Part shown: piece by piece, positions 3,294 to 53,712 of the stretch
How the letters are laid out: the number at the start of each line of letters is the position of its first letter
Numbering within the stretch: position 1 is the first letter of the stretch
Source of the DNA: Candidatus Krumholzibacteriota bacterium
GTDB taxonomy: Bacteria; Krumholzibacteriota; Krumholzibacteriia; JAJRXK01
Assembly (NCBI GenBank): GCA_029262065.1
Contig: JAJDAC010000022.1
Span: 186,001-250,000, forward strand
Reading direction: 5' to 3'
Length of the DNA: 64,000 nucleotides
Notes under the pieces: generated by a model
What the model was told of the DNA's origin: nothing
What the model saw: only the letters and a program-made list of their open reading frames with translations
Database searches by the model: none
Translations under genes and position numbers: made by a program

Positions 3294-4808
3294 CTAGCGA
3301 CCACCCACGTACCCCAGACTGCGCAAACGCTCCATGGCGTCTTGCGACTGGGCGGGGTTGAAGCGCGAGGGCAACGGCTGGGGATCTCGCGCCCACGCGG
3401 CCAACACCTCCCTCAGCACCTCGGCCTGCGACCGGGTGGCCGCGTCGTCGGCCGGTAGGAGGTTTGTGCGCTCGTGCGGATCTGTCTCCAGATTGTAGAG
3501 TTCCTGGCGCTGCAGGTAGGGAGTGTGAATGTACTTCCACGGACCCCAACGCACGCACCTGGCCTTCATCTGGTTGCGCCATACCTGGTCTCGCTCGAAA
3601 CTCGCCCCCACCGGCTGGGTCGACTCGCTGAACACCGGAACGACCTCCAGTTCCGAGCCGTTCCACGATGACACGAGGCTGCGCCCATCCACTCGTTCCG
3701 GCGTGGGAATTCCGAGAAGTTCACAGAGAGTAGGCAACACGTCGACGGACGAGACCGGCGTATCGATTTGCACCGCCACCGAATTCGCCGGTGGCAAACG
3801 CAGGAGCAACGGCACGTGCACGGTGGATTGGTATACCGCCAGGCCGTGGTTCCAGAAATCGCCGTGGACCCAGAATGATTCGCCGTGGTCAGCGGTGATC
3901 ACGACGATGGCGTCATCGAGAATTCCCTGATCCTGGAGCCCTTCCAACAATCTTCCCACTTGGGAATCCACATACGACACCTCGCCGGCGTACAGCGCGG
4001 CCAGATCCCGATCCAAGGCCGTGGGTTCGCCGTTCGCGCCGTCCAACAGCTCGTTGCTCAGTCCGTGCCGCATGGCTCCCATCAGACCGGGGCCATCGTC
4101 GACAATCGCATCGTGATGACGCTGCACCAACATCTGGAGGTCGTCGAAACTGGAGGTTCGCGGCCCGTCAGCACGACCATACATGGCGTCGTAGGGTGGT
4201 GGCGGGCGATAGGTGGCGTGCACGTCGAAGTAGTGGGCAAACAGGAACAGCCGTTCGGAGCCGGCGTTGCGCCGTCCTGACCACTCGAGCACGGCATCGG
4301 TGACCCGGTCCGCGGTGCGCTGGTTCTGATCGAACGCGTCCATGTCGATCAACTGGTCGAAGTCCTGATCGTAGTGATCGAACCCCGCGCCGAACCCGAA
4401 CATGCGGTCCAGGGCGTAGGACCCCAGGAACGCCGCGGTCGTGAATCCGGCGCTCTTGAGTAGCTCTGGCAGCATCTGGTTCGCGTCGTGAACCGAGAAC
4501 CCGTTTCGGGGAACTCCATGCGTGCGCGGGTACGAACCGGTAAACAGCGAGGTATGCGCAGCCAGCGTGGTGGGGGCGGCGGTCGTGACGTCGACGAATC
4601 GTATCGCCTGACTCGCCAATGCATCGATGGCTGGGGTACCGGCCCGCGAACCAAAACCGCTCGAGTGATCCGCCCGCAACGTGTCGATCGATAGAAGAAT
4701 CACGTGGCGATGGGGCCCGTCGTACGAATCCCGCGAACAACCAATCAACCCGCCCAGCACGAATCCAATCGCCATCAAGCGATGCAGCCGAGAACCGAAA
4801 CCATCCAT
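3294..4808 (-). CDS. Sulfatase-fold (alkaline phosphatase superfamily) lipoprotein with Thr at the nucleophile site
   Basis: The 504-residue protein has the sulfatase fold: metal-binding ILLSIDTLRADH (D42), the nucleophile region APTTLAAHTSLFTG, a DHGESFWVHG metal site near the middle and the usual C-terminal ETDPHERTNL. The position normally held by Cys or Ser (converted to formylglycine in true sulfatases) is Thr81, and the following Arg is His. LtaS-type phosphoglycerol transferases and phosphoethanolamine transferases also use Thr, so a transferase or phosphatase is at least as likely as a sulfatase. I chose ATG 4808 because GGAG lies six bases upstream and the N-terminus then reads as a lipoprotein signal (FVLGGLIGC, Cys24). 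An alternative ATG at 4775 forms a TGATG overlap with the decayed gene upstream. Confidence 0.85.
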   Translation of the reverse strand: MDGFGSRLHRLMAIGFVLGGLIGCSRDSYDGPHRHVILLSIDTLRADHSSGFGSRAGTPAIDALASQAIRFVDVTTAAPTTLAAHTSLFTGSYPRTHGVPRNGFSVHDANQMLPELLKSAGFTTAAFLGSYALDRMFGFGAGFDHYDQDFDQLIDMDAFDQNQRTADRVTDAVLEWSGRRNAGSERLFLFAHYFDVHATYRPPPPYDAMYGRADGPRTSSFDDLQMLVQRHHDAIVDDGPGLMGAMRHGLSNELLDGANGEPTALDRDLAALYAGEVSYVDSQVGRLLEGLQDQGILDDAIVVITADHGESFWVHGDFWNHGLAVYQSTVHVPLLLRLPPANSVAVQIDTPVSSVDVLPTLCELLGIPTPERVDGRSLVSSWNGSELEVVPVFSESTQPVGASFERDQVWRNQMKARCVRWGPWKYIHTPYLQRQELYNLETDPHERTNLLPADDAATRSQAEVLREVLAAWARDPQPLPSRFNPAQSQDAMERLRSLGYVGGR

Positions 4809-48608: not shown

Positions 48609-51600
48609 CTACGCGCGTGTGTCGCCAGGCGCCGGCGAAGCGCCCACGCCGCGCCGAAACGTACGAACAACGACAACACGCAGATCCAGAAAAAGGCTCA
48701 GCAAGGCCGGAACCAGAAACATGGTGAACACTGTCGACACCACGAGCCCACCCACGACCACGCTTCCCAGTCCGCGGTACAACTCCGACCCCGCGCCCGG
48801 AAACAACACAAGCGGCAACATGCCGAACACGGACGTGCTCACGCTCATGAAAATCGGTCGCACCCTGGTTCGCACCGACTCGCGAATCGCCTCGGCCGCC
48901 AACATCTGATCGTCGCGCATGTGATTGAGAGTCTGGTGCACGATCAGGATGGCGTTGTTCACCACCGTCCCCACCAAAATGATGAACCCCATCATGGTAA
49001 GCACGTCGAGGGCCTGGAACGTAACGAACGCGTTGATGGCGGCTAGCCCCAGGAACCCGCCCAGCGCGGCCAAGGGTACGCTGAACATGATGACGAACGG
49101 ATACACGAAGTTCTCGAACAATGCCGCCATGAGCAGATACGTGATCAGAAGGGCCAGCAGCAGGTTCCAACGCAGCGCGTTCCAGGTTTGGTCGAGGTCG
49201 CGCGCGGTGCCACTGAGCCTCACCTGATACAGCCCGCCGAGCCTGCCCTGCTCCTGCATCGGGCCCAGGATCTGAGTCTGGATGACGGACATGGCCTGCT
49301 CCAACGGCATCTGCTCGTCTGGTGTCACGCGAATGACGATGGCCCTTTGTCGCTCGGAATGGTTGATGGTGGTAGGGCCACTCTCCATCGTGATCTCGGC
49401 TACCGAACCCAGAGTCACCAACTCACCGGTGGGCGTGGCGATGGGCAACTGGTCGATCAGATGGGTTCGTTGGTCTACGTCGACATTGGCCTTCAGTCTC
49501 AGGTCGATTTCCTTGCCCTCGTGCTGAAAGTCACTGGCCTTGGCGCCGTCCACCAACGCGCTGACCGCGAACCCCAGGTCACGATTGCTCAGTCCCAATT
49601 CGGCCGCGCGCCGTCGGTGGGTCCGCACCTGTACCTCTGGATTTCCCAGATCGAGGCTGGGAATAGGCTGCGCTTGGGCCCCCTCCAGTTTCTGGAACAC
49701 GCCTCCGAATATCTCCCCTCCCAACGCGATCAGTTGCGGCAACTCGGGGCCGGTGACCTCCACATCGATCGACCGGCCTTCGCCGATTCCGCGTGAGAAG
49801 ATACTCGACTGCGTCATGATGAAAATGGTGCCGGGCAGCTTGGAGTTGATCTTGCGGAATTCGGGCAGCAGCTCCCGCACCCGCAGCGGCTCGTTGGCCT
49901 GCGCGCCCATGAACGCCTGGTTGGACAGGGCCACGTAGAAATAGTTGCGAATGCCACCGCCCGGCTGCGCCGCGGCGGCCTCTGATCCCGCCTCCTCAGA
50001 CCAAAGCGGGGACAACTCATCGAAGAAAGCGCCCTGCATGGCACTGACCTCGTCGAGGTTGTACCCAGGAGGCGGCAGCATGAACCCAAACAGGAAATTT
50101 TGATTTCCCTGCGGCAGGTAGTCGGTCTTGGGTGCCAACAACCAACTCAGACCCACCGACACCGCGGTAAGACCGAGCACCACCATGAGCCGGCGGAGTG
50201 TAGACGCGTTGATGAAATACACAGCGTTGGCGATGGCCGACGAGATTCGTGGTGAACGAACTTCCTTGTTATCCGAGGCGCCTCCGAGAATCTTCGCCGA
50301 CAAACTGGGAATGACGGTAATCGATACGAGCAGGCTGAGCGCCACGGCACAGCTGATGGCCAGCGCGATGTCGCCGAACAGCTGCCCCGCCTCCTCGCGA
50401 ATGAAAACCACGGGAACGAAGACCGCGACGGTGGTCAACGTGCTGGCCAACACCGCGCCCCATACTTCGCGAGCGCCGTCGTAGGCCGCTTCGGCTCGAC
50501 TCTTGCCCATTTGGCGATGGCGATAGATGTTTTCCAGCACGACGATGGAATTGTCCACCACCATGCCCACGGCGAAGGCCATACCGGCCAGACTGATCAC
50601 GTTCAGCGTGCGGCCGAACAGCCACATCATCAGAAAAGATGCGACGATGCTGACGGGGATGGCCACTGCGACCACCAGCGTACTGGTGACACTACGCAGA
50701 AACAGCAGCAACACGATGATGGCCAACACACCACCAATGATCAGGCTCTGACGCACGAGTCCAATGGAACTCTCGATGTATTCGGTCTCGTCGTAGACGA
50801 GGCGCAGGTACATGCCACGCTCGGTCAGTAATCCCTCGTTCAGGTTGTCGGCGGTTTCCTTCAATCCCCGAACGATATCCAGAACGTTGCCACCCGGCTC
50901 CTTGACCGCGTTGATGGCCAGGACCTGGTCGGCCATCTGGTAGACGCGCGCCACGGGCTTCCGATACCCCAGCTCGGCGTGACCGACGTCGCGCAGGTAC
51001 ACGGGTACGTCGTTGCGCACGGCCACCACGATGTTCTCGATGTCCTCTGGAGACGCGTACTCACCGACCGTGCGCACTACGTACCGACGCTTCCCCTCGT
51101 CAAAGTCGCCACCACTGTAATTGCGATTCTCCCGTTCCAAGGCGCGCGCCAGATCATTCAGCGTTACGCGACGACTGGCCAGGCGCGCCGGGTCGACGAA
51201 CACATGCATCTCCCGTGTCCGACCACCGAAGATGTTGGACTGCGCGACGCCTCGCACCCGTTCGAACGCAGGCTTGATGTTGTCATCGGCGAAATCGAAC
51301 ACGGTGGACATGTCCCCGTCGAAGCCGTTCTCCGGCGTGGGCGCCAGAATGAACCAGGCCACCGCGCTGGAATTGACGTCGGTGCTGGCAATGACCGGCT
51401 TCTCGGCGTCTTCGGGGTAGCTGGGCACCTGTTCGAGACGATTGGATGTGCGCAACATGGCGGCGTCCAGCTCCACGCCAACGTCGAACGTGAGCGTCAC
51501 CGTTCCCGAGCCATCGGAGCTGGAACTTTCCAACTTGCGCAAGCCCTGCAGTGACTTCAGCTGTTCTTCCTGCTCATCGATGATCTCGCGCTCGATCTCG

Positions 51601-51770
51601 CGCGGACTCGCACCGGGCCACACGGTGGTCACGGTGACAATCGGCTCTTCCACGTTGGGCGTGAGCTGAATAGGAATGCGCGTGATGGCGAGTACGCCGA
51701 ACAGAATCAGGAACAGCACGCCAACGCTGGTGGTCACCGGAAGTCGAATTGCATCAGAAATCACTTTCAT
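48609..51770 (-). CDS. HAE1-family RND efflux pump (AcrB/MdtB-like)
   Basis: The 1053-residue protein has the full RND architecture: 12 helices and two large periplasmic loops. Signatures include RIPIQLTPNVEEPIVTVTTV, WPGASPREIEREI, SLAGMAFAVGMVVDNSIVVL (AcrB has DD at 407/408; here DN, with one acidic residue kept), and DVLTMMGFIILVGTVVNNAI in the second half. It uses the proton gradient to expel hydrophobic compounds. The start ATG overlaps the stop of the membrane fusion gene (ATGA). No outer-membrane TolC channel lies in the operon, so a channel encoded elsewhere must serve. Confidence 0.95.
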   Translation of the reverse strand: MKVISDAIRLPVTTSVGVLFLILFGVLAITRIPIQLTPNVEEPIVTVTTVWPGASPREIEREIIDEQEEQLKSLQGLRKLESSSSDGSGTVTLTFDVGVELDAAMLRTSNRLEQVPSYPEDAEKPVIASTDVNSSAVAWFILAPTPENGFDGDMSTVFDFADDNIKPAFERVRGVAQSNIFGGRTREMHVFVDPARLASRRVTLNDLARALERENRNYSGGDFDEGKRRYVVRTVGEYASPEDIENIVVAVRNDVPVYLRDVGHAELGYRKPVARVYQMADQVLAINAVKEPGGNVLDIVRGLKETADNLNEGLLTERGMYLRLVYDETEYIESSIGLVRQSLIIGGVLAIIVLLLFLRSVTSTLVVAVAIPVSIVASFLMMWLFGRTLNVISLAGMAFAVGMVVDNSIVVLENIYRHRQMGKSRAEAAYDGAREVWGAVLASTLTTVAVFVPVVFIREEAGQLFGDIALAISCAVALSLLVSITVIPSLSAKILGGASDNKEVRSPRISSAIANAVYFINASTLRRLMVVLGLTAVSVGLSWLLAPKTDYLPQGNQNFLFGFMLPPPGYNLDEVSAMQGAFFDELSPLWSEEAGSEAAAAQPGGGIRNYFYVALSNQAFMGAQANEPLRVRELLPEFRKINSKLPGTIFIMTQSSIFSRGIGEGRSIDVEVTGPELPQLIALGGEIFGGVFQKLEGAQAQPIPSLDLGNPEVQVRTHRRRAAELGLSNRDLGFAVSALVDGAKASDFQHEGKEIDLRLKANVDVDQRTHLIDQLPIATPTGELVTLGSVAEITMESGPTTINHSERQRAIVIRVTPDEQMPLEQAMSVIQTQILGPMQEQGRLGGLYQVRLSGTARDLDQTWNALRWNLLLALLITYLLMAALFENFVYPFVIMFSVPLAALGGFLGLAAINAFVTFQALDVLTMMGFIILVGTVVNNAILIVHQTLNHMRDDQMLAAEAIRESVRTRVRPIFMSVSTSVFGMLPLVLFPGAGSELYRGLGSVVVGGLVVSTVFTMFLVPALLSLFLDLRVVVVRTFRRGVGASPAPGDTRA

Positions 51771-52882
51771 GGCAAGTCGTACTCCAGGGCTTCGCCCACC
51801 ACTGATTGTCCCGGGCGCAACCGCTCATTGCCCCGCGTAACTATTTTCGTCCCAGCGGTGACGCCACTTTCCGCCACCACCCAGTCGCCGTATCCGTCGC
51901 CGACCTCCACCGGACCCATACTGGCCGTACCGTCGTCTCCGATGGCCCACACGAACAATGCCTCGCCCTGCCGAATCAACGCGTCCTTGGGCACCAACAC
52001 CGACCGCTGCATGCGACCCAACGGCAACGTGACTTCCGCCAACATGCCCACCGACAGTTCCCGGCCGGGGTTTGCCAATGCGACCAGAATCGGAAACGTG
52101 CGAGCGCGCGGATCGGCGCGGGGAATGAGAGCCACGATGGTTCCTTCGACCAACAGGTCAGGGCGCGCGCCGAAGCGGATGGTCGTGGCACCCCCCTCGC
52201 GCAACTGATGAAAATGCTGTTCGGTCACCTCCACACGAACCCGCAGTTCATCCACCGCCACGATCTCCACCACGGGATCTCCCGCGTTCAGCCACTCCCC
52301 AACCTCGGTTCGCTCGCTCACTACCACGCCACCCAGCGGCGCGCGAATCGTGCACCGCTCGATGTCCAGTTCGATACGAGCGATCCTTGCGTTGAGTTGG
52401 GCCACGCGGCCTTGCCAGGCTCGGTAATCGGCCACCGCATCGTCCATACCCTCAGCCGCCACCAGGTCTTCGTCGAAGAGGTTTCGGGCCCGGTTCATGG
52501 CATTCTCGGCGCGTTCCAAACGCGCGTGGGCTTCGGCCAATTCGCCTCGGCCGCCCTGCAGATCGAGCTCAAGCTCATTGGTCTTCAGCTGTACCAGGGT
52601 CGCGCCTTTGCGCACGATGTCACCCTCGCCGGCTCGGCGACTGGCGACCACGCCCTGCACTTCGCTGGCGACAAGGCTGGTCACCGTGGATTCCACGGTA
52701 CCGGGCAGCTTCACACCGGTCCGGACGTCGCGAGTCTGAGCGATCGTGTACCGCACGGGGGCATCGCCCGGGCCCTGGGCCCGCCCGTCGGTAACCGCCA
52801 ACAAGGTCAGGCAGGCGCAGATTGCATGGAAGAACGAGGTGCGCCCGTTTGAAAGGCTAATTGAGGGCATGAACCAACCCAT
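51767..52882 (-). CDS. RND membrane fusion protein (AcrA/HlyD type)
   Basis: The 371-residue protein has an N-terminal signal (ICACLTLLAVTDGRA/Q), a lipoyl-like half-motif (VEGEDIV-type: VVASRRAGEGDIVRKGATLV), an alpha-helical hairpin (about 105-170, GRGELAEAHARLERAENAMN), the second lipoyl half (IRAPLGGVVVSERTEVGEWL) and a beta-barrel domain (LVPKDALIRQGEALFVWAIG). It links the HAE1 pump to the outer membrane. ATG 52882 is used; an ATG at 52870 (MPSISLS) is possible. It is the first gene of a minus-strand run that goes on to the pump, sigma factor and kinase. Confidence 0.92.
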   Translation of the reverse strand: MGWFMPSISLSNGRTSFFHAICACLTLLAVTDGRAQGPGDAPVRYTIAQTRDVRTGVKLPGTVESTVTSLVASEVQGVVASRRAGEGDIVRKGATLVQLKTNELELDLQGGRGELAEAHARLERAENAMNRARNLFDEDLVAAEGMDDAVADYRAWQGRVAQLNARIARIELDIERCTIRAPLGGVVVSERTEVGEWLNAGDPVVEIVAVDELRVRVEVTEQHFHQLREGGATTIRFGARPDLLVEGTIVALIPRADPRARTFPILVALANPGRELSVGMLAEVTLPLGRMQRSVLVPKDALIRQGEALFVWAIGDDGTASMGPVEVGDGYGDWVVAESGVTAGTKIVTRGNERLRPGQSVVGEALEYDLP

Positions 52883-52959
52883 CGCGTAAGGGGGGAATAC
52901 CCAAGAGTCTAGACGAATACTGGGCCAAGGATCGCGAAAAACCTTTGGCTCGAACGCAG

Positions 52960-52977
52960 CGTAGCTGATCTGCTACG
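52960..52977. repeat. Short perfect inverted repeat before the selenoprotein gene
   Basis: CGTAGC (52960-52965), a six-base spacer and GCTACG (52972-52977) lie in the 140-bp gap between the membrane fusion gene and the selenoprotein gene, which are divergent. The 6-6-6 layout is that of a protein-binding palindrome, 45 bp before the GTG start. No regulator is known. Confidence 0.4.
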
Positions 52978-53022
52978 TTTCTGTAACATGACGAGCAAAC
53001 CACCAACCCATGGAGATGATCG

Positions 53023-53358
53023 GTGAAGAAGGCGAGCTGGTACTACCACCGCAAGGGCTGAACGTCCTGCGCGAAGGCGTCCAAGTTCCTGGATGCAAAA
53101 AAGGTCGATACGGCGGAAGTCGTCCCCGCCAGCCGGAAACTCGGCGAGAAGGACGCACGGGAGCTCATCCGGAATGCCAAGAAGGTCTACGTGGCCAAGG
53201 GCAAGAAGCTTGAGGAGTTCGAAGGTGGCCGCGCCACCAAGGACCTGGTGGCCAAGGTGCTCGGTCCCACGGGCAACCTGCGAGCACCGACGATCGTGGC
53301 GGGAAGCAACCTGATGGTTGGCTTCCACCCCGAAAAATTCGAGGATCTGTTCGGCTGA
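53023..53358 (+). CDS. ArsC-family selenoprotein (in-frame TGA = selenocysteine, U-x-x-C)
   Basis: Reading GTG 53023 to TGA 53356-53358 gives 111 residues with one internal TGA at 53059-53061 (codon 13). The flanks read WYYHRKG-U-TSCAKASKFLD, and the C-terminal part reads VLGPTGNLRAPTIVAGSNLM, VGFHPEKF. This is the pattern of the ArsC/Spx-like thioredoxin-fold family, where Cys or Sec heads a CxxC-type redox site. The second Cys (Cys16) is present, and the cis-Pro (RAPTI) is typical of the fold. GGAG lies seven bases before the GTG. A SECIS-like hairpin follows at 53077-53096. The frame stays coding on both sides of the TGA, so a nonsense mutation is unlikely. The role is presumably thiol redox; arsenate reduction is not shown. 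Confidence 0.88.
53059..53061 (+). other. UGA codon predicted to encode selenocysteine
   Basis: TGA at codon 13 stands where homologues of this family carry Cys or Sec, three residues before Cys16. Coding sense continues for 98 codons after it with conserved family motifs. Recoding rather than termination is therefore expected. Confidence 0.85.
53077..53096 (+). promoter_or_regulatory. SECIS-like hairpin downstream of the UGA
   Basis: GCGTCCA (53077-53083) pairs over seven bases with TGGATGC (53090-53096), one G-U pair included, around the six-base loop AGTTCC. In E. coli fdhF the apical loop carries the functional GU at positions 23-24 counted from the U of UGA. Here GU is at 27-28, inside the range seen for bacterial SECIS. 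A bulged U was not identified. Confidence 0.65.
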
Positions 53359-53396
53359 AAAAAAGGGGGAGGACCCGCGACGCGGCTCCTCCCCCC
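53358..53396 (-). terminator. Strong terminator of the glycogen-binding-fold gene, overlapping the selenoprotein stop
   Basis: On the minus strand a nine-base-pair stem (arms 53365-53373 and 53387-53395) with an inner five-pair CCGCG/CGCGG section is followed by seven T. The run begins at the last base of the selenoprotein stop codon. In the plus direction the hairpin is followed by A, so it is not a canonical terminator for the selenoprotein. Confidence 0.85.
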
Positions 53397-53418
53397 AAAA
53401 AACCTGACCATCGCAGGC

Positions 53419-53712
53419 TTAGGGAGTGGTTACTACCACACTGTTCTTGGTGCCATGTTCGTTCGTGCGATAGGCATCGGCGGTGTCATCGTTGACCCAC
53501 TGATCCTTGTCCACCAGGTAGCGGAACTGAAACTCCGAATCCTTGGGTAGGCGCACCTTGGCCTTGAATGGGCCCTTGCCGGACCGTTTCATGACGAGCG
53601 GTTCCCATTCGTTGGCTTCGCAAACCAGTTTCACTTCCTGGGCACCTTCGGCGTTCATCTCGAAGGTCACTTCGCATTCGTCCTTCGTCTTGAAGAACTT
53701 CTTCTTCAGCAT
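53419..53712 (-). CDS. Single-domain CBM48/isoamylase-N-like (glycogen-binding fold) protein
   Basis: The 97-residue protein is one early-set beta-sandwich: KDECEVTFEMNAEGAQEVKL, CEANEWEPLVMKRSGKGPFK, AKVRLPKDSEFQFRYLVDKD, QWVNDDTADAYRTNEHGTKN. It resembles the AMPK-beta/isoamylase N-terminal domain that binds alpha-glucans (W in WEP and W in QWVNDD are the sugar-stacking candidates). No catalytic domain is attached. ATG 53712 is the start. Such stand-alone copies occur in many bacteria with unknown role; they may target partners to glycogen. It ends at the terminator shared with the selenoprotein stop. Confidence 0.85.
   Translation of the reverse strand: MLKKKFFKTKDECEVTFEMNAEGAQEVKLVCEANEWEPLVMKRSGKGPFKAKVRLPKDSEFQFRYLVDKDQWVNDDTADAYRTNEHGTKNSVVVTTP

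Follow-up and report, generated by a model that had tools for sequence, protein, structure and literature searches.

Selenoproteins resembling the arsenate reductase ArsC are a known prokaryotic family. Such 'ArsC-like' selenoproteins were tabulated in PMC1794560; a UxxC arsenate reductase-like selenoprotein is entered under COG1393 in PMC9312934, and the tables of PMC13188914 give the number NF041106 for an 'Arsenate reductase-like protein' with the motif UxxC. The original prediction had called this family known, which these papers bear out. Its described neighbours are the ArsC enzymes (TIGR00014; E. coli b3503), which belong to the same fold superfamily and carry Cys12 at the position of selenocysteine (Sec), and the Spx/ArsC_related proteins (TIGR01617, PF03960), which share the thioredoxin fold, a (C/U)xxC pair where helix 1 begins and a Pro loop with a GF motif after it. 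The UXX-star glutaredoxin-like selenoproteins (NF041212, NF041114) are likewise small thioredoxin-fold (seleno)proteins, but their models are shorter (70 positions) and lack the ArsC insert.

The window analyzed here is a stretch of 64,000 nucleotides from a Candidatus Krumholzibacteriota bacterium, and the genome that holds it (5.77 Mb in 59 contigs) is 95.6% complete. On the plus strand of the window lies a frame of 111 codons plus a TGA stop, with a GTG start, that had been described as a coding frame broken by a single internal TGA at the redox site. This TGA was seen again as codon 13 and, together with the terminal stop (53356-53358), is the only TGA in the frame; the coordinates and motifs proposed for the gene proved exact on re-reading. 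The frame reads VKKASWYYHRKG-U-TSCAKASKFL...LGPTGNLRAPTIVAGSNLMVGFHPEKFEDLFG-stop, and the features of the locus are as follows.

53012-53015, plus strand: Shine-Dalgarno-like GGAG, 7 nt 5' of the GTG start (direct reading and relatives).
53023-53358, plus strand: gene for a selenoprotein of the ArsC_rel_Se_1 (NF041106) family (NF041106, PF03960 ArsC, AlphaFold2 pLDDT 94.2).
53059-53061, plus strand: in-frame UGA (codon 13) decoded as selenocysteine, in the catalytic-Cys position of ArsC/Spx/glutaredoxin (TGA in 19/19 members of the phylum; counterpart of Cys12 in the alignment with E. coli ArsC).
53077-53096, plus strand: bSECIS hairpin candidate GCGUCCA - AGUUCC - UGGAUGC (RNA fold; stem at the same position in 19/19; bSECIS model as given in the available part of PMC13188914).
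53275-53289, plus strand: codons of N85-L86-R87-A88-P89, predicted cis-Pro loop facing Sec13 (invariant in alignment A1).

The GTG at 53023 is the sole possible start because the second codon before it is TGA, and a GGAG or AGGAG precedes the start codon in most relatives of the gene. No table-11 open reading frame of at least 60 aa exists in the frame of 53023-53358, and a spurious antisense frame of 139 aa (52909-53328, minus strand) lies on top of it, so that a gene caller without selenoprotein rules misses the gene, as had been anticipated.

The product matches NF041106, 'ArsC family (seleno)protein', over profile positions 2-107 of 107 (110.3 bits, cut-off 85, E 6.8e-32), and TGA codon 13 stands at the first UxxC position, where this model expects Sec (UGA) or Cys. 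Sec site, UxxC motif and full length are those of the family and nothing essential differs. The Pfam model PF03960 (ArsC) is also matched (26.4 bits, cut-off 24). In contrast, TIGR00014 arsC (cut-off 106 bits) gave no match at E<=1, and the product remains under the cut-offs of TIGR01617 Spx/MgsR (25.2 bits against 75) and of the UXX-star model NF041212 (19.5 bits only, against 66). Since the family is already listed in the reviews, the selenoprotein of 53023-53358 is a further member of a known family.

The conservation of this gene was surveyed in 80 genomes of the phylum, using the NF041106 cut-off. Matches over the cut-off were obtained in 19 of them, belonging to 8 genera and two families, and each of the 19 members has exactly one internal TGA, at the same site, Cys being found there in none. 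The protein of the window is 41-59% identical to 17 relatives that share the TGA. Downstream of this codon, the pairwise dN/dS between the window and its nearest relative is 0.33/0.70 and the ratios within the other clade are lower; judged by these rates, the gene is under purifying selection after the TGA. On the combined strength of the NF041106 score, the identity to relatives and dN<dS, the frame is far beyond what chance would yield. The residues W6, Y7, Y8, R10, G12 and U13, followed by N85, L86, R87, A88 and P89, are invariant in 18 aligned proteins. The residue three after Sec is more variable: Cys in 13/19, Ser in 5/19 and Ala in 1/19, the second Cys having been lost in three genera of the phylum (UxxS, UxxA). 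The motif 'UxxC' of the reviews is therefore not essential, six relatives in the phylum carrying UxxS or UxxA where the review tables give UxxC only. A pattern search for relatives outside the phylum returned only Cys-containing Spx-like proteins, and a search of a plasmid collection gave one weak match to the arsenate reductase family. A second ArsC-type selenoprotein, of a different kind, was encountered in another genome of the phylum (G004, L040 1459-1815, plus strand). This Spx/ArsC_related protein has its TGA at the active site (KST-U-STCRKA) and scores over the TIGR01617 cut-off.

The original prediction implied that SelA, SelB, SelC and SelD should be present in this lineage, and all four were found in the genome of the window: selA (468 bits), a full-length selB (354 bits), selD (336 bits; G000:C48:88900-89832, L012) and a tRNA-Sec with a UCA anticodon (71.6 bits). 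A selB-like frame near the tRNA-Sec (L006) was dropped, since it scores 79 bits and its sequence suggests a LepA-like GTPase, the true selB being located on a different contig. The selD gene contains one in-frame TGA at the known Sec/Cys active site (YASAAG-U-AAKLSPG) and is thus a second selenoprotein gene of this genome. At the scale of the phylum, selA is present in 78/80 genomes. UGA nevertheless remains a normal stop codon in this organism, as the following observations show. RF2 (prfB) is over its cut-off, with its gene at G000:C14:173700-175000 (L055). This gene has a frameshift site of the classical RF2 type (GGAGGG-TCTTTGAC; CTTTGAC; sequence at L055: GGAGGGTCTTTGAC), which accounts for its internal TGA. 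The genes neighboring 53023-53358 in the window terminate with TGA.

The hairpin downstream of the UGA consists of a 7 bp stem and a 6-nt loop whose positions 2-3 are GU, the stem beginning 15 nt and the loop 22 nt after the UGA. It is the only structure in the centroid of the RNA fold. The bSECIS model, in the available part of PMC13188914, asks for a loop of 3-9 nt, a stem of 4-16 bp, a G in the first two loop bases and a UGA-loop distance of 16-37 nt, and the loop size, stem size, loop G and spacing of the 53077-53096 hairpin all fall within these rules. Taken from the window alone, this hairpin is a weak candidate: a 7-bp stem occurs in about 8% of synonymous recodings of the gene, about 2.6% of the TGAs found across the window have a comparable stem after them, and the fold reaches a z-score of only -1.2. 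The support for a SECIS element comes from the family as a whole and not from the hairpin of the window by itself. A stem is found at a fixed position in 19/19 family members. One stem pair changes from G-U to C-G in the nearest relative, and a different stem of 6-8 bp occupies the same place in the other clade (17 genomes). The stem codons CAG, CTT and GCG are each kept in 17/17 members of this clade and are thus constrained at their synonymous positions, although CTT accounts for just 3% of the Leu codons in the remainder of these genes; the counts are not independent events because the 17 genomes are related. Judged by total folding energy, the SECIS region did not stand out from its synonymous recodings (mean z -0.48); the test was then switched, after this first result had been seen, to stem length at the fixed position and codon choice. 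A search of the region with Rfam gave only a sub-threshold P31 match, located at the downstream hairpin, which was rejected.

The AlphaFold2 model of the selenoprotein is of the thioredoxin type (pLDDT 94.2, pTM 0.85). Among solved structures, this model comes closest to Spx, ArsC-related proteins and glutaredoxins, with TM-scores of about 0.5-0.6, and its central insert is predicted to form a beta hairpin (strands 54-59 and 62-67). Sec13 aligns with the catalytic Cys12 of E. coli ArsC. The Pro of the NLRAP loop is invariant across the wider ArsC superfamily and, by analogy with the fold family, is presumably cis and facing Sec13.

Two other explanations of the internal TGA have to be considered. 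The codon could stem from a sequencing error, or the gene could be decaying and have acquired a nonsense mutation, which the window by itself could not exclude. All 19 members, which span 8 genera and two families of the phylum, however have TGA at this codon, and the purifying selection downstream of it and the Sec machinery of the genome speak against decay as well; with the TGA conserved in 19/19 and Cys in 0/19, an error or a pseudogene can be regarded as excluded. The original prediction had itself named a lack of sel genes and a read error at the TGA as the findings fatal to it, and the evidence runs the other way on both. A general use of UGA as a sense codon in this lineage, for Trp or another residue and with no Sec involved, might be suggested by the in-frame TGAs also met when reading selD and prfB. 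The TGA of prfB is however explained by the CTTTGAC frameshift site, TGA terminates genes of the window, the 53023-53358 gene itself uses TGG for W and the Sec system of the genome is complete, which makes this possibility negligible. As far as can be judged from sequence, 53023-53358 is almost certainly a genuine selenoprotein gene with its UGA read as Sec.

As for the function of the product, a Sec version of a true arsenate reductase, converting As(V) to As(III), would agree with the name 'arsenate reductase-like' given to the family by the reviews, with the Pfam ArsC match, which is barely over its cut-off, and with an Acr3 arsenite exporter encoded elsewhere in the genome. This function is nevertheless very unlikely. 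The selenoprotein has no TIGR00014 match and, in the alignment with E. coli ArsC, Arg94 and Arg107 are replaced by the invariant Ala88 and Phe101; no Arg occurs in the column of Arg60, where the alignment is less certain. These three arginines are reported to be necessary for arsenate resistance (PMC5155266). Moreover, the genome encodes a separate Cys-containing ArsC that is over the TIGR00014 cut-off and has kept its arginines, directly 3' of acr3 lies a frame that partially matches thioredoxin-type arsenate reductases, and no ars genes are found near 53023-53358. The designation 'ArsC-family' in the original prediction consequently holds for family membership, confirmed by the full-length NF041106 match, but not in the sense of an arsenate reductase, the substrate-binding arginines not being conserved. 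The protein could alternatively be a selenium-based Spx, namely an RNA polymerase-binding redox switch that alters transcription upon oxidation of UxxC. Spx is its closest solved relative by profile (E 2.6e-7) and by fold, and in both the redox pair (C/U)xxC occupies the same position. This role seems equally improbable: the score is far under the TIGR01617 cut-off, the second Cys needed for a disulfide switch is Ser or Ala in 6/19 members, and the TM-score is only 0.56-0.58, the central insert with its predicted beta hairpin being different from that of Spx/ArsC_related proteins. The motifs differ too: in the selenoprotein, W-Y-Y-x-R-x-G precedes Sec, and the Pro lies in N-L-R-A-P where Spx/ArsC_related proteins have K-R-P. 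As for the frame located directly after acr3 (L056 about 3509-4132, plus strand, G000:C13), its middle part matches thioredoxin-type arsenate reductases (CTHNSRRS), far under the cut-off.

The absence of the ArsC arginines and the presence of a separate Cys-containing ArsC in the genome make a selenol-based thioredoxin-fold oxidoreductase likelier than an arsenate reductase. Granted that the gene encodes a selenoprotein, its product is probably a small oxidoreductase, and the reading as a whole, a Sec-inserting gene with a thioredoxin-fold oxidoreductase as its product, can be considered likely. Sec insertion itself and the redox catalysis may be pictured as follows. SelB bound to the 53077-53096 hairpin would guide the ribosome, so that Sec carried by tRNA-Sec would be inserted at the UGA of 53059-53061 instead of a stop. 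The product would be a single-domain protein of the thioredoxin fold with Sec13 at the N-terminus of helix 1, across from the cis-Pro loop predicted at NLRAP. Its selenolate would attack a disulfide, a peroxide or another oxidized or electrophilic substrate, and the intermediate would be resolved by Cys16 in the UTSC members or by an external thiol in the UTSS and UTSA members. A bolder proposal, possible but doubtful, is that of a selenium-only (mono-selenol) enzyme or sensor that would form a separate class within the thioredoxin fold, in which Sec would be the sole invariant redox residue, the partner Cys having been lost in three genera, and in which the invariant Arg10 and Arg87 would form a new anion- or substrate-binding site replacing the ArsC arginines, so that the protein would act on a substrate new to the superfamily.

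A hidden gene, from a lineage that uses Sec (selA in 78/80 genomes), is thereby added to a family known from sequence only, and the alignment speaks against the name arsenate reductase while pointing to a Sec-only redox center. What is new relative to the known family is modest, namely that members across the phylum use Sec only, that three genera have lost the second Cys and that the ArsC arginines are missing; the gene is otherwise that of a routine, well-supported selenoprotein.

The genomic context of 53023-53358 gives no functional hint. This gene is solitary, with a divergent RND efflux operon (48609-52882, minus strand) on one side and a convergent gene (53419-53712, minus strand) of the CBM48/AMPK-type glycogen-binding-like kind on the other, and this arrangement is not kept as orthologous neighbors in the relatives. 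An RND pump is near the gene in the window and in two relatives, but these pumps are only about 33% identical, so no functional link was drawn. In some relatives of one clade (L045, L046, L047), genes for urocanase and for a ThyX-type thymidylate synthase are located on the same strand, 5' of the selenoprotein gene, a neighborhood that is absent in the window. Immediately downstream of the gene, the window contains a G/C-rich hairpin (GGGGGAGGA...TCCTCCCCC, 53358-53402) flanked by A runs on the plus strand, hence T runs on the minus strand, which by its sequence resembles an intrinsic terminator of the convergent gene 53419-53712.
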